Below, piece after piece: positions 54,756 through 58,261 of a DNA stretch of 64,000 nt; the stretch's first letter is position 1, and the number at the start of each line of letters is the position of its first letter. The notes under the pieces were generated by a model. It searched no databases. It was not told the DNA's origin and was given only the letters and a program-made list of their open reading frames with translations. Location: contig NZ_WUWN01000003.1 in assembly GCF_009846865.1 (NCBI RefSeq), forward strand, positions 62,001 through 126,000. Direction: 5' to 3'. The translations under genes and the position numbers were made by a program. This DNA is from Puerhibacterium puerhi (GTDB taxonomy: Bacteria > Actinomycetota > Actinomycetes > Actinomycetales > Cellulomonadaceae).

Positions 54756-56471
54756 ATGCCAACAGTCGCCCAGCACCTCGTCGACAGCCTCCACTCCTCC
54801 GGTGTCCGGCGGGTCTACGGGATCGCCGGGGACTCGCTCAACGGGGTCACCGACGCGCTGCGGCGCAACGGTGACGTGGAGTGGGTCCATGTGCGGCACG
54901 AGGAGGCGGCGGCGTTCGCGGCGTCGGCCGAGGCCGCCGTCACGGGCCGGCTCGCCGTGTGCGCCGGCAGCGCTGGGCCCGGGAACCTGCACCTGATCAA
55001 CGGCCTGTACGACGCGCAGCGCTCCCGCGTGCCGGTGCTCGCCATCGCCGCGGACATCCCCAGCTCCGAGATCGGCACGGGCTACTTCCAGGAGACGAAC
55101 CCGCGGGACGTGTTCCGGGAGTGCTCGGTCTACGCGGCGGTCGTCTCCAAGCCCGAGCAGATGCCCCGCCTGCTGCGCATCGCCGTGCACGAGGCGCTGT
55201 CCAAGCGCGGCGTGGCGGTGCTGGTCCTCGCGGGCGACATCGCGCTGTCCCAGATCGACGCCCAGCCGGAGGCGTTCCACATCGACGCGCCGCACGTGGT
55301 GCCCGCGGAGGCGGCGGTGTCGGCGGCCGCGACCGCGCTCAACACGGCCGAGCGCGTGACGATCCTCGCGGGTGCCGGGGTGCAGGGCGCGCACGACGAG
55401 CTGGTGGCCCTGGCGGAGCGGCTCAAGGCGCCGGTCGTGCACGCGATGCGCGGCAAGGAGTTCGTCGAGCCGGACAACCCCTACGACGTCGGCATGACCG
55501 GGCTGCTGGGCTTCAGCAGCGGCTACCGGGCGATGGAGGCGTGCGACACGCTGCTGATGCTCGGCACCGACTTCCCCTATCCCCAGTTCTTCCCGCGGGA
55601 CTCGACGATCGTGCAGGTCGACGTGCGCGGCGAGCAGATCGGCCGGCGCGCCAAGGTGGACGTGCCCGTCGTCGGCGGGGTCAAGGAGACGGCGACGGCG
55701 CTGCTGCCCCGGCTGCGCGACCGGCACGACACCCGGCACCTGGACGCGATGCGCAAGCACTACGCGCGGGCCCGCAAGAGCCTCGACGACCTGGCGACGC
55801 CGTCGCGCCGCACGATCCACCCGCAGTACCTGGCCCGCGTCGTGGACGAGGCGGCCGACGACGACGCCGTCTTCCTGCCCGACGTCGGCTCGCCCGTGGT
55901 GTGGGCGGCGCGCTACCTGCGGATGAACGGGCGCCGGCGGCTCATCGGGTCGTTCACCCACGGGTCGATGGCGAACGCCGTGTCGCAGGCGATCGGCGTG
56001 CAGGCGGCCCAGCCGGGCCGCCAGGTCGTCGCGCTGGCCGGCGACGGTGGCCTGGCGATGCTGCTGGGCGAGCTGCTGACGCTCGTCCAGAACAAGCTGC
56101 CGGTCAAGGTCGTCGTGTTCAACAACTCCTCGCTGAACTTCATCGAGCTGGAGATGAAGGCCGCCGGGTTCGTCACGCACTCCACCGGGCTGCAGAACCC
56201 GGACCTCGCGAAGCTCGCCGAGGCGATGGGGGTCAAGGGGGTGCGGGTGGAGTCGGCCAAGGCGCTGCCGGGCGCCGTCAAGGAGGTGCTCGCGCACGAC
56301 GGGCCCGCGCTGCTCGACGTCGTCACCGAGCGGCAGGAGCTGGCCATCCCGCCGACCATCACGGCCGAGCAGGCGCAGGGCTTCACGCTGTACGCGATCC
56401 GCACCGTGCTGTCCGGCAAGGGCGACGAGCTGCTCGACCTGGCCCAGGCCAACTGGCGCCAGCTCTTCTAG
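54756..56471 (+). CDS. poxB: Thiamine-pyrophosphate-dependent pyruvate oxidase/dehydrogenase (PoxB-like)
   Basis: A 571-residue flavoenzyme of the TPP family. VRRVYGIAGDSLNGVTDALRR near 17 and VRHEEAAAFAASAEA near 47 (catalytic Glu in HEE) form the Pyr domain; LTVLAGAGV-like and GTDFPYPQFFP near 272 the FAD domain; GDGGLAMLLGELLTLVQNKLPVKVVVFNNSSLNFIELE (residues about 430-465) is the Mg-TPP motif. It is closest to pyruvate:quinone oxidoreductase, which makes acetate and CO2 and passes electrons to quinone. The C-terminal membrane-binding helix of E. coli PoxB cannot be confirmed. The ATG has GAGGAAG upstream. The gene ends at a large hairpin. Confidence 0.88.
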   Translation: MPTVAQHLVDSLHSSGVRRVYGIAGDSLNGVTDALRRNGDVEWVHVRHEEAAAFAASAEAAVTGRLAVCAGSAGPGNLHLINGLYDAQRSRVPVLAIAADIPSSEIGTGYFQETNPRDVFRECSVYAAVVSKPEQMPRLLRIAVHEALSKRGVAVLVLAGDIALSQIDAQPEAFHIDAPHVVPAEAAVSAAATALNTAERVTILAGAGVQGAHDELVALAERLKAPVVHAMRGKEFVEPDNPYDVGMTGLLGFSSGYRAMEACDTLLMLGTDFPYPQFFPRDSTIVQVDVRGEQIGRRAKVDVPVVGGVKETATALLPRLRDRHDTRHLDAMRKHYARARKSLDDLATPSRRTIHPQYLARVVDEAADDDAVFLPDVGSPVVWAARYLRMNGRRRLIGSFTHGSMANAVSQAIGVQAAQPGRQVVALAGDGGLAMLLGELLTLVQNKLPVKVVVFNNSSLNFIELEMKAAGFVTHSTGLQNPDLAKLAEAMGVKGVRVESAKALPGAVKEVLAHDGPALLDVVTERQELAIPPTITAEQAQGFTLYAIRTVLSGKGDELLDLAQANWRQLF

Positions 56472-56478
56472 TCCTCCG

Positions 56479-56550
56479 CCGAGATAGAGAGGTCCCCGCC
56501 CGAGATAGAGAGGTAGCTCTCTATCTCGGGCGGGGACCTCTCTATCTCGG
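56479..56550. terminator. 34-bp perfect hairpin of tandem 21-bp units between convergent genes
   Basis: Arm 56479-56512 is the exact complement of 56517-56550 around a 4-nt loop. Each arm contains CGAGATAGAGAGG twice, 21 bp apart and joined by TCCCCGCC. It starts 8 bp after the poxB stop and ends 11 bp before the leftward ATPase stop, so it should terminate both transcripts. The length and internal duplication are unusual. Confidence 0.8.
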
Positions 56551-56560
56551 GCGGGGAGGG

Positions 56561-58261
56561 TCAGCGCGTCAGCGCCGCCAGCTCCTCGCGCCGCGCGCGC
56601 TGCGCGACCGGGTCCGGGACCGGCAGCGAGGCCAGCAGCCGCCGCGTGTAGTCCTCCCGCGGGGCGCCGAGCACCTCGGCGCCGGTGCCCTCCTCGACCA
56701 GCCGGCCGCGGTACAGCACCGCGATCCGGTCGGCCAGCAGGTCCACCACGGCCAGGTCGTGCGAGACGAACAGGCAGGCGAACCCGAGCTCCTTCTGCAG
56801 CTCGGCGAACAGCTCCAGCACCCGCGCCTGCACCGACACGTCCAGCGCCGACGTCGGCTCGTCGGCCACCAGCAGCTCCGGGTCCAGCGCCAGGGCCCGG
56901 GCCAGCGACGCGCGCTGGCGCTGGCCGCCGGACAGCTCGTGCGGGAACCGGTCGCCGTACGAGCGGGGCAGCTGCACCGCCTCGAGCAGCTCGTCGACGC
57001 GCCGGCGGGCCGCCGCCGGCGACGACGCCCGGCCGTGCACGACGAGCGGCTCGGCCACGCACTCGGCGATGGTCAGCAGCGGGTTGAAGCTCGTCGCCGG
57101 GTCCTGGAACACGAACCCGAGCCGCGGCCGCATGGCCTTGAGGGCGGCCGGGCGCGCCCCGCGCATCTCGGTGCCGAGCACGCGCAGCGAGCCGCCGCTG
57201 GCCGGCTGCAGGCCGGCGATCGCGCGGGCGATCGTCGTCTTGCCCGAGCCGGACTCCCCCACCAGGCCGAGCACCTCGCCGGGCCGGATGGCCAGCGACA
57301 CCCCGTCGACGGCGGTGAACCCCGGCCGGCGGAACCGGCCCGGGTAGGTGATGGTCAGGTCGGTCGCCTGCACCACCGGCTCGGCGTCGGCCCACCCCGC
57401 GGGGCGGTCCGCGGCGCGCGCCTCGGCGCGGGCGGTGCCCTCGCCGATACGCGGCACGGCGCCCAGCAGCGCCCGGGTGTACGCCGCCTGCGGCTGCGCG
57501 AAGAGCTCGCCCACGGACGCCTGCTCCACGACCTTGCCCTGGTACATCACCGCGACGCGGTCGGCCAGGTCGGCCACCACGCCCATGTTGTGGGTGATGA
57601 GCACGATGGCGGTGCCGGTCTCGTCCCGCAGCCGCCGCAGCAGCTCCAGGATCTCCGCCTGCACGGTGACGTCGAGCGCCGTCGTCGGCTCGTCCGCGAC
57701 GATCAGCCCCGGGCCGAGGGCCAGCGCCATCGCGATGACGATGCGCTGCTTCTGCCCGCCGGAGAACTGGTGCGGGTAGTGGTTCACCCGCTGCTCCGGG
57801 TCGGGGATGCCGACCTGCCGCAGCGCCTCGACCGCCCGGGCGCGCGCCTCGGAGCGCGACACCCGGCCGTGGGCGCGCAGCCCCTCGGCGATCTGCCAGC
57901 CCACCGGGTACACCGGGTTGAGCGCCGTGGACGGCTCCTGGAACACCATCGCGACGTCGCGGCCGCGCACCTGGCGCAGCCGCGCCGCCGGCACGGACAC
58001 GACGTCGGTGGCGCCGTCCCGCCCGGACAGCAGCACGGCGCCGCGCGTCGTGGCCGTCGGGGGCAGCAGCCCCAGGATGGTCTTCGCCGTGACGGTCTTG
58101 CCCGAGCCGGACTCGCCGACGATCGCGAGCACCTCGCCGGGGTTGACCTCGAGGTCCACGCCGTCGACGGCGCGCACCGGCCCGTGGTCGGTGGCGAACG
58201 AGACGGCCAGGTCCTTGATCACCACCACCGGGTCGCGGCCCGGCGCTGTCGAGGCGCTCAT
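56561..58261 (-). CDS. Fused double ATP-binding protein of a second Opp/Dpp-type importer
   Basis: A 566-residue protein with two ATPase domains. Domain 1 (about 1-265): Walker A GESGSGKTV, VFQEPSTALNPVYPVGWQI, signature QFSGGQKQRIV, Walker B LIVADEPTTALD, H-loop LITHNMGVV. Domain 2 (about 295-560): Walker A GESGSGKTT, FVFQDPATSFNPLLTI, signature ELSGGQRQRAS, Walker B LLVADEPTSALD. The ATG overlaps the permease stop (ATGA). It is the last gene of a leftward four-gene importer operon. Ligand class is discussed under the binding protein. Confidence 0.93.
   Translation of the reverse strand: MSASTAPGRDPVVVIKDLAVSFATDHGPVRAVDGVDLEVNPGEVLAIVGESGSGKTVTAKTILGLLPPTATTRGAVLLSGRDGATDVVSVPAARLRQVRGRDVAMVFQEPSTALNPVYPVGWQIAEGLRAHGRVSRSEARARAVEALRQVGIPDPEQRVNHYPHQFSGGQKQRIVIAMALALGPGLIVADEPTTALDVTVQAEILELLRRLRDETGTAIVLITHNMGVVADLADRVAVMYQGKVVEQASVGELFAQPQAAYTRALLGAVPRIGEGTARAEARAADRPAGWADAEPVVQATDLTITYPGRFRRPGFTAVDGVSLAIRPGEVLGLVGESGSGKTTIARAIAGLQPASGGSLRVLGTEMRGARPAALKAMRPRLGFVFQDPATSFNPLLTIAECVAEPLVVHGRASSPAAARRRVDELLEAVQLPRSYGDRFPHELSGGQRQRASLARALALDPELLVADEPTSALDVSVQARVLELFAELQKELGFACLFVSHDLAVVDLLADRIAVLYRGRLVEEGTGAEVLGAPREDYTRRLLASLPVPDPVAQRARREELAALTR

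Follow-up and report, generated by a model that had tools for sequence, protein, structure and literature searches.

The window, a 64,000-nucleotide (64-kb) stretch of the Puerhibacterium puerhi genome, contains a long hairpin between two converging genes. The sequence from 56479 to 56512 is the exact reverse complement of 56517-56550, with 34-bp arms and zero mismatches, and the 12-mer CGAGATAGAGAG occurs twice in each arm. The original prediction of a perfect 34-bp hairpin built from 21-bp units between convergent genes was thus confirmed in its complementarity, its period and the orientation of the flanking genes. The features of the locus are as follows:

54756-56471, + strand: thiamine-pyrophosphate (TPP) enzyme gene (own gene call; Pfam TPP_enzyme N, M and C), with its stop 8 bp before the hairpin
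56472-56557, no strand: extended imperfect inverted repeat, arms of 41 nt, complementarity 93%
56479-56512, + strand: 5' arm of the perfect 34-bp hairpin, two + units with one spacer, exact reverse complement of 56517-56550
56480-56491, + strand: unit CGAGATAGAGAG, first of the + pair, exact match
56501-56512, + strand: unit CGAGATAGAGAG, second of the + pair, 21 bp on from the first, exact match
56513-56516, no strand: loop GTAG, 4 nt
56517-56550, - strand: 3' arm of the hairpin, two - units with one spacer, reverse complement of 56479-56512
56517-56528, - strand: unit CGAGATAGAGAG, first of the - pair, exact match
56538-56549, - strand: unit CGAGATAGAGAG, second of the - pair, 21 bp on from the previous one, exact match
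56561-58228, - strand: oligopeptide-type ABC transporter ATPase gene (own gene call; Pfam ABC_tran and oligo_HPY), convergent, with its stop end 11 bp from the hairpin

The 101-nt hairpin region folded as RNA with an energy of -86.5 kcal/mol (z -11.8), and the reverse strand with -84.9 kcal/mol (z -14.0). None of 200 shuffles folded as well on either strand, and the runner-up perfect stems in the window were 14 bp long in a scan that allowed loops of 3-8 nt. Rfam returned nothing at the gathering score, only sub-threshold animal microRNA models of the kind that long hairpins may give, which rules out a known structured RNA family at the Rfam threshold. No U-tract terminator was found between 50000 and 62000 of the window by a scan that registers no more than 20 pairs and requires 5 T in 8. 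A specialised bidirectional terminator, as originally proposed, is possible: the position fits, although the U-tract scan was empty. Termination would be no more than one among the effects of a broader repeat system, and the suggestion that the hairpins affect it is a tentative one. The TPP-enzyme homologues closest outside the genus (in G239, G235 and G009; 66-67% identity) lack an array of this kind behind the gene, and their neighbours differ, so they do not provide a clean empty site. Behind another TPP-enzyme homologue (L264, in G192), a different palindrome, CGATTTCGGGGACTATTCG.., was observed at the gene end and perhaps represents another repeat family.

The genome from which the window is taken (G000; 3.9 Mb in 94 contigs) contains 77 exact copies of CGAGATAGAGAG (41 + 36; 0 + 0 in the reversed control) and 107 copies with no more than one mismatch (54 + 53), compared with 1 (1 + 0) in the reversed control. 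The unit is therefore not unique in the genome, and the original proposal of a dispersed repeat is borne out. A chance origin was ruled out by these counts against reversed controls, together with the fold against shuffles. We consider it practically certain that the family is real, and the hairpin is one copy of it and not a lone terminator.

At least 25 arrays of two or more units were placed in this genome, 24 clusters at first and then L074; a lone one-mismatch unit inside a gene (L037) was left out of the cluster count. According to our own gene caller, all 24 clusters are intergenic, with 18 in convergent gaps, 6 in tandem gaps and none in divergent gaps, and L074 also lies in a convergent gap. 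The background consisted of 382 adjacent gene pairs from the window and from samples of G187 and G188 (73 convergent, 236 tandem and 73 divergent). Against it, the probability of at least 18 convergent gaps among 24 is 4.7e-9, and that of no divergent gap among 24 is 0.006. The expectation that the unit pairs always lie between convergent genes held for those 18 clusters and failed for the 6 in tandem gaps. For 23 arrays of G001, the placement was 15 convergent, 7 tandem and 1 divergent.

All + units lie to the left of all - units in each of the 24 clusters and in all of 24 further arrays (the 23 of G001 and L074). Starting from the gene end, the sense unit leads and the antisense unit completes the hairpin. 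A single 21-bp unit does not form a stem by itself; pairing takes place between arrays. When one mismatch was allowed, six of the 24 clusters were one-sided (L032, L036 twice, L048 twice and L051), and in three of these (L032, the second of L036 and the second of L048) an opposing unit emerged at two mismatches. Six gene ends of this genome have their TAG stop codon within a unit.

The arrays were compared with those of G001. An array is present at the matching place in G001 for 22 of 25 clusters, with flanks that are approximately 81-96% identical, while L032, L047 and L051 had no match among the G001 array loci fetched. As 22 of 25 sites are common to the two closest species, any movement must be slow. 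In 20 orthologous arrays (L032 was omitted, as its flanks did not align), identity was 93.5% in the cores, 88.9% in the 100-bp flanks and 77.2% in the spacers, compared with approximately 90%, 68% and 66% in cores, flanks and spacers of non-orthologous arrays. Inner spacers agreed between the arms at no fewer than 8 of 9 positions in 8 of 11 arrays of G000 and 6 of 13 arrays of G001, versus about 5% between loci. In the window array, both arms of the inner spacer changed between the species (gtccccgcc/ggcggggac versus gtccccggc/gccggggac). These comparisons indicate that the core is held while the spacers drift, and that arm pairing is above chance though not in every array. At one locus (L048, 2180-3060, in G000:C56), +++ and -- arrays flank an ORF of 223 aa for which Pfam gave no match; the corresponding G001 locus (L052) has one ++-- array with no such ORF between, a difference that points to a gene gained or lost between arrays.

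A search of 84,980 species genomes for the exact tandem pair gave 33 stretches, all from records that carry the name Isoptericola (I. variabilis JZ7, I. luteus NEAU-Y5, sp. QY 916 and sp. 4D.3). In an order-wide search, the exact 9-mer tandem occurred in G000 alone of 396 genomes; the reversed control is void for this search, as GAGATAGAG is identical when reversed. Within the family, 32 of 221 genomes contain a looser core, CGAGNTAGA, repeated with a period of 20-22, and the number of pairs in a genome reaches 231 in genus g7. The reversed controls for this core totalled 0-3 in each genome apart from G185 (7) and G239 (71), and the count of 114 in G239 is therefore doubtful. The usual period is 20, 21 or 22, depending on the species. 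The core of g7, CGAGGTAGA, contains GTAG, which is absent from the Isoptericola core.

At one locus of G000 (L036), +++ and --- arrays bracket a 322-aa ORF (G000:C12:87449-88414) on both sides. Its protein gave below-cut-off Pfam matches to MTES_1575 (E 8e-5) and AbiEi_1 (E 0.003), and had no match in NCBIfam. An alignment of 34 homologues was made from rows of our own selection; L160, L175 and a frameshifted G185 gene are in neither the alignment nor the tree described below. Weak Pfam matches among the 34 were to MTES_1575 (18), DUF559 (7), AbiEi_1 (7) and AbiEi_4 (7), the NCBIfam DUF559 model matched 4, and the PADLOC AbiEi models matched all 34. The motif D..ExDGxxK is invariant across the 34 rows, with D241, E252, D254, G255 and K258 among the invariant residues. 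MTES_1575 is described as a Vsr-type REase domain in the excerpted text of PMC3710099. Based on these weak matches, the bracketed gene appears to encode an AbiEi-like N-terminal part joined to a DUF559/MTES_1575 (Vsr-type, PD-(D/E)xK-like) nuclease-like part. The earlier idea of a binding array for a restriction-like protein is in agreement with arrays that bracket an AbiEi-like/DUF559 (Vsr-like) gene, and the binding itself is putative.

A structure model of the protein, built from two sequences, had a pLDDT of 41, too low to be of use. A PDB profile search gave only ribosomal S20 (E 0.004-0.03), which was taken for chance. Plasmid or phage cargo was ruled out, with 3 weak plasmid matches, no phage match and no viral-contig relative. 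The two neighbours of the gene in L036 appear by eye to be metabolic enzymes.

Homologues of the protein were present in all 27 genomes searched, and a phylum-wide search (E <= 1e-10) found one in 71 of 396 sampled genomes. The best homologues in G000, G001, G190, G191 and G192 are bracketed by CGAGATAGAGA arrays. Other motifs were found in the flanks of the homologues elsewhere: CGAGGTAGA.. in G011, G162, G166, G171 and G174; CGAGATAGAACC in G163; CGAAGTAGAGCC in G193; CGAGATCGAC.. in G168, G182 and G007; CGAGGTAGTGC in G188; CGAGGTAGGCAAC in G182 and G187; CGAGTCAGCGC in G189; and TTCGGCAGAACC in G033.

The flanks were scored by the inverted 10-mers common to the 550 bp on either side of a gene, with the 99th percentile of control genes as the threshold; the 199 control genes came from the window, G187 and G188 and are not composition-matched to the phylum-wide set. 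From longer homologue lists, 49 near, 29 phylum-wide and 8 further homologues were scored, and L210 was left out as the same gene as L178. The signal exceeded the threshold for 28 of 49 near homologues versus 2 of 199 controls (Fisher P 1.9e-21), for 10 of 29 phylum-wide homologues versus the same controls (Fisher P 1.3e-8), and for 2 of the 8 further homologues (L282 and L283). The 21 near, 19 phylum-wide and 6 further homologues with no signal at this threshold count against a partnership between gene and repeat, as do two array-bearing genomes (G168 and G186) with three homologues each, none of which is bracketed by the CGAGGTAGA arrays of its genome. For approximately 10 of the 21 signal-less near homologues, arrays are evident by eye or by motif. 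Below the threshold, the flanks of distant homologues in genus g124 of the same class (L188, L190 and L191) share GAGTGGCCA / TGGCCACTCG across species.

Four homologues are encoded in G000, and three of them are bracketed by three different hairpin families: L151 by CGAGATAGAGAG-type arrays, L283 by a 58-bp palindrome (CGAGACTTGAGTTGTGG..) and L282 by a 66-bp palindrome (CTGTTCGGTGATTCGTTGGC..). The fourth, L220, gave no flank signal. In the 207 kb of this genome examined, the second hairpin also occurs in L043 and in the loop of array L038, and the third occurs solely beside its gene. In L038 (3067-3124, G000:C17), the second-family hairpin lies within the loop of a CGAGATAGAGAG array, and the matching G001 array (L059) is without it. 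This is a gain or loss of one hairpin, and it is the nearest thing to movement in these genomes.

The motif read beside a gene was also used to predict a repeat in the genome of that gene. G189 has one homologue and no CGAGNTAGA arrays. The motif CGCGAGTCAGCGC, read off the flanks of this homologue, occurs 256 times in G189 (132 + 124, the gene's own flanks included) versus 1 + 0 in the reversed control, and 0 or 1 times in each of 26 other genomes. Three further motifs were enriched in samples of the predicted genome that do not contain the genes concerned. CGAGGTAGGCAAC occurred 7 times in 200 kb of G187 and was absent from G188 and G168; CGAGGTAGTRC occurred 5 times in G188, 0 times in G187 and twice in 240 kb of G168; and AACTGCCGAACG occurred 4 times in G188 and was absent from G187 and G168. 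The prediction for CGAGATACCG failed, with 0 in the G187 sample, and CGAGATCGACC did not discriminate, with 2 in the predicted G168 versus 6 in G187 and 3 in G188. Of the six motif predictions, one therefore failed and one lacked discrimination.

A tree of 47 homologues, 38 of them labelled with a motif, required 13 changes of motif class versus a mean of 22.3 for shuffled labels, and 0 of 200 shuffles were as low; the tree was made by a quick method from rows that we selected, and the motif classes were assigned by hand. A CGAGATACC clade unites genera g21 and g9, and the CGAGATCGAC rows unite g7 and g21. One three-row motif class (CGAGATCGG/A) is not clustered. As judged from these protein and flank sequences, motif class follows the protein tree across genera.

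The closest known counterpart is the system of REP, REPIN or BIME repeats with a RAYT transposase, also called a REPtron; BIMEs are bound by gyrase, IHF or HU. In excerpts of PMC3733652, PMC3116915 and PMC6006769, REP-type repeats are high-copy, extragenic and palindromic and occur as inverted pairs close to the 3' ends of genes, for the most part in convergent or tandem gaps; their gene is bracketed by its own repeat type, and a genome has several types, each paired with a gene of its own. The present repeats are alike in all these respects, and part of PMC8266576 also supports the match in layout. For GTAG REPs, the TAG stop codon is often supplied by the repeat, as stated in a portion of PMC3733652. 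Two differences were found. The bracketed gene is here an AbiEi-like/DUF559 nuclease, and the Y1/HUH transposase domain of RAYT (PF01797) was found in 0 of 22 genomes and in 5 of 14 control genomes, which rules out a RAYT partner for those 22. In addition, REP units are stem-loops of 20-40 bp that carry a GTAG or CGTC tag at the foot, whereas the unit here is a 12-mer every 20-22 bp that is paired only between arrays. Given the absence of RAYT and of a tagged stem-loop unit, the family was not filed as REP/RAYT, though it would be REPtron-like in its working. CGTC REPs are also dispersed palindromic repeats at gene ends with no RAYT beside them, and have no known partner enzyme according to the quoted sections of PMC3733652; unlike them, the present family has no CGTC-tagged stem-loop unit, and a partner gene is proposed.

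On the protein side, the AbiE toxin-antitoxin system resembles the present case in that AbiEi models match all 34 homologues and that AbiEi autoregulates by binding inverted repeats in its own promoter, as reported in extracts of PMC7319586. It differs in that a nuclease-like C-terminal part is fused here, and in that no AbiEii toxin gene is found beside the gene in L036 (two neighbours, by eye). The Vsr, DUF559 and MTES_1575 nuclease domains are linked to our protein by the weak Pfam matches and the invariant D..ExDGxxK; unlike here, no tie of these domains to dispersed repeats was found in excerpts of the open-licence literature. Searches of that literature (subscription journals and preprints lay outside its scope) found nothing that combined DUF559, palindromic repeats and Actinobacteria, nothing on extragenic palindromes, RAYT and Actinobacteria, and nothing on AbiEi and interspersed repeats. 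Titles and abstract openings of the open-licence papers naming DUF559 showed no such repeat partnership, and those on extragenic palindromes and actinomycetes, among the matches listed, showed nothing of the kind. The main text of a 2025 REP survey (PMC12306157) contains neither RAYT nor endonuclease and names Actinomycetota once. The partnership of repeat and nuclease suggested here was not found in the open-licence literature searched.

It is very probable that the repeat family has a cognate protein partner. We consider a REP-like repeat family partnered with an AbiEi/DUF559 nuclease gene to be the best explanation, and probably the correct one. The family is made of short tandem arrays, with the core CGAGATAGAGAG every 21 bp, usually as inward-pointing pairs that form long hairpins and mostly located just after stop codons. 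Sequence comparison established the repeats and where they lie, the bracketing, the agreement, in other genera, between motif and protein lineage, and a single prediction borne out across a whole genome; the steps that follow are inferred. The N-terminal AbiEi-like part would recognise the core, which is proposed because AbiEi binds inverted repeats (in the extracts of PMC7319586) and because the core is conserved. The nuclease part would then nick or cut at the core, as suggested by the invariant D..ExDGxxK motif. That the AbiEi/DUF559 protein binds or cuts the repeats is likely. Over long times, repair of such cuts might copy, lose or trim hairpins, with spread being a guess; the chances that the protein spreads or maintains the repeats appear evenly balanced. 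Gene 3' ends presumably tolerate hairpins, which may also stop or insulate transcription, a role proposed from position and pairing only. In its broadest form, we lean slightly towards the proposal that Actinomycetota hold a second, independently evolved REPtron, in which AbiEi-DUF559 (Vsr-type) nucleases would recognise, spread and maintain their own palindromic repeats, with one motif per protein lineage, several pairs per genome and no HUH transposase.

The arrays could instead be binding sites and not mobile DNA, with the AbiEi/DUF559 protein acting as a DNA-binding regulator, roadblock or nucleoid protein. A period of 20-22 bp, approximately two turns of DNA in every lineage seen, would place the sites on one face of the helix, gene-end arrays would block or insulate transcription, and arrays beside the protein's own gene would autoregulate it, in the manner of AbiEi at its promoter inverted repeats (again from extracts of PMC7319586). 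The conserved core among drifting spacers, the sense unit that is always on the gene side of the array and the 22 of 25 sites in common with G001 are all consistent with such a role. However, the nuclease-like motif is intact and invariant in 34 rows, the gene is bracketed on both sides and not at the promoter alone, and one hairpin was gained or lost between two species; we therefore consider this explanation unlikely, though the strongest of the rivals.

Two other explanations appear improbable, and to the same degree. The hairpins could be plain bidirectional terminators that were selected at gene ends and tandem-duplicated without a protein partner, in which case the DUF559 genes would be bracketed simply because terminators flank genes. 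This would account for the arrays at 3' ends and between convergent genes, for arm pairing that is retained despite changes on both arms, and for the GC-rich stems that some arrays frame. It is difficult to reconcile with the empty U-tract scan, with some arrays being one-sided and with the only 2 of 199 ordinary genes bracketed in this way; moreover, a stem has no need of a near-invariant, lineage-specific 12-mer, and the motif tracks protein lineage across genera and predicted a genome-wide repeat. That tracking of the DUF559 protein tree also argues against miniature elements of some other transposase, which DUF559 genes would often accompany as passengers or neighbours. The layout, the 3'-end placement and the repeat-supplied stop codons match published REPs (portions of PMC3733652) and would suit such elements, as would the g7 arrays that bracket 500-600 bp without a called gene, but the Y1 transposase PF01797, the sole transposase class covered, was found in 0 of 22 genomes.

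For published REP-type repeats, excerpts of PMC3733652 name the RAYT transposases as the single class of partner enzyme, with none for the CGTC class. If the partnership with the AbiEi/DUF559 gene is true, a nuclease of an unrelated family would be tied to actinobacterial repeats, and the arrangement of a repeat with a domesticated nuclease would have arisen more than once. It would also provide a first role for a protein annotated only as DUF559 or AbiEi-like. The rule can be tested by sequence, by reading the motif beside the gene and counting it in the genome, and such genes across the phylum would then be keys to the repeat families of their genomes.

Some further observations concern individual arrays. 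A +/- array at L045 (2947-3010) in G000, and likewise at L058 in G001, is placed between two genes that look by eye like grpE and dnaJ, apparently in one operon. The g7 stretches of 500-600 bp without a called gene (L143, 2787-3443; L146, 2300-3053; and L113) have a common interior with its own inverted repeat, and resemble a larger non-coding element. In the G011 arrays (C1, C2, C5, C16, C17 and C20), many loci show a 50-bp step between the final + pair and the - pair that follows it, as though the hairpin tip had a constant size.
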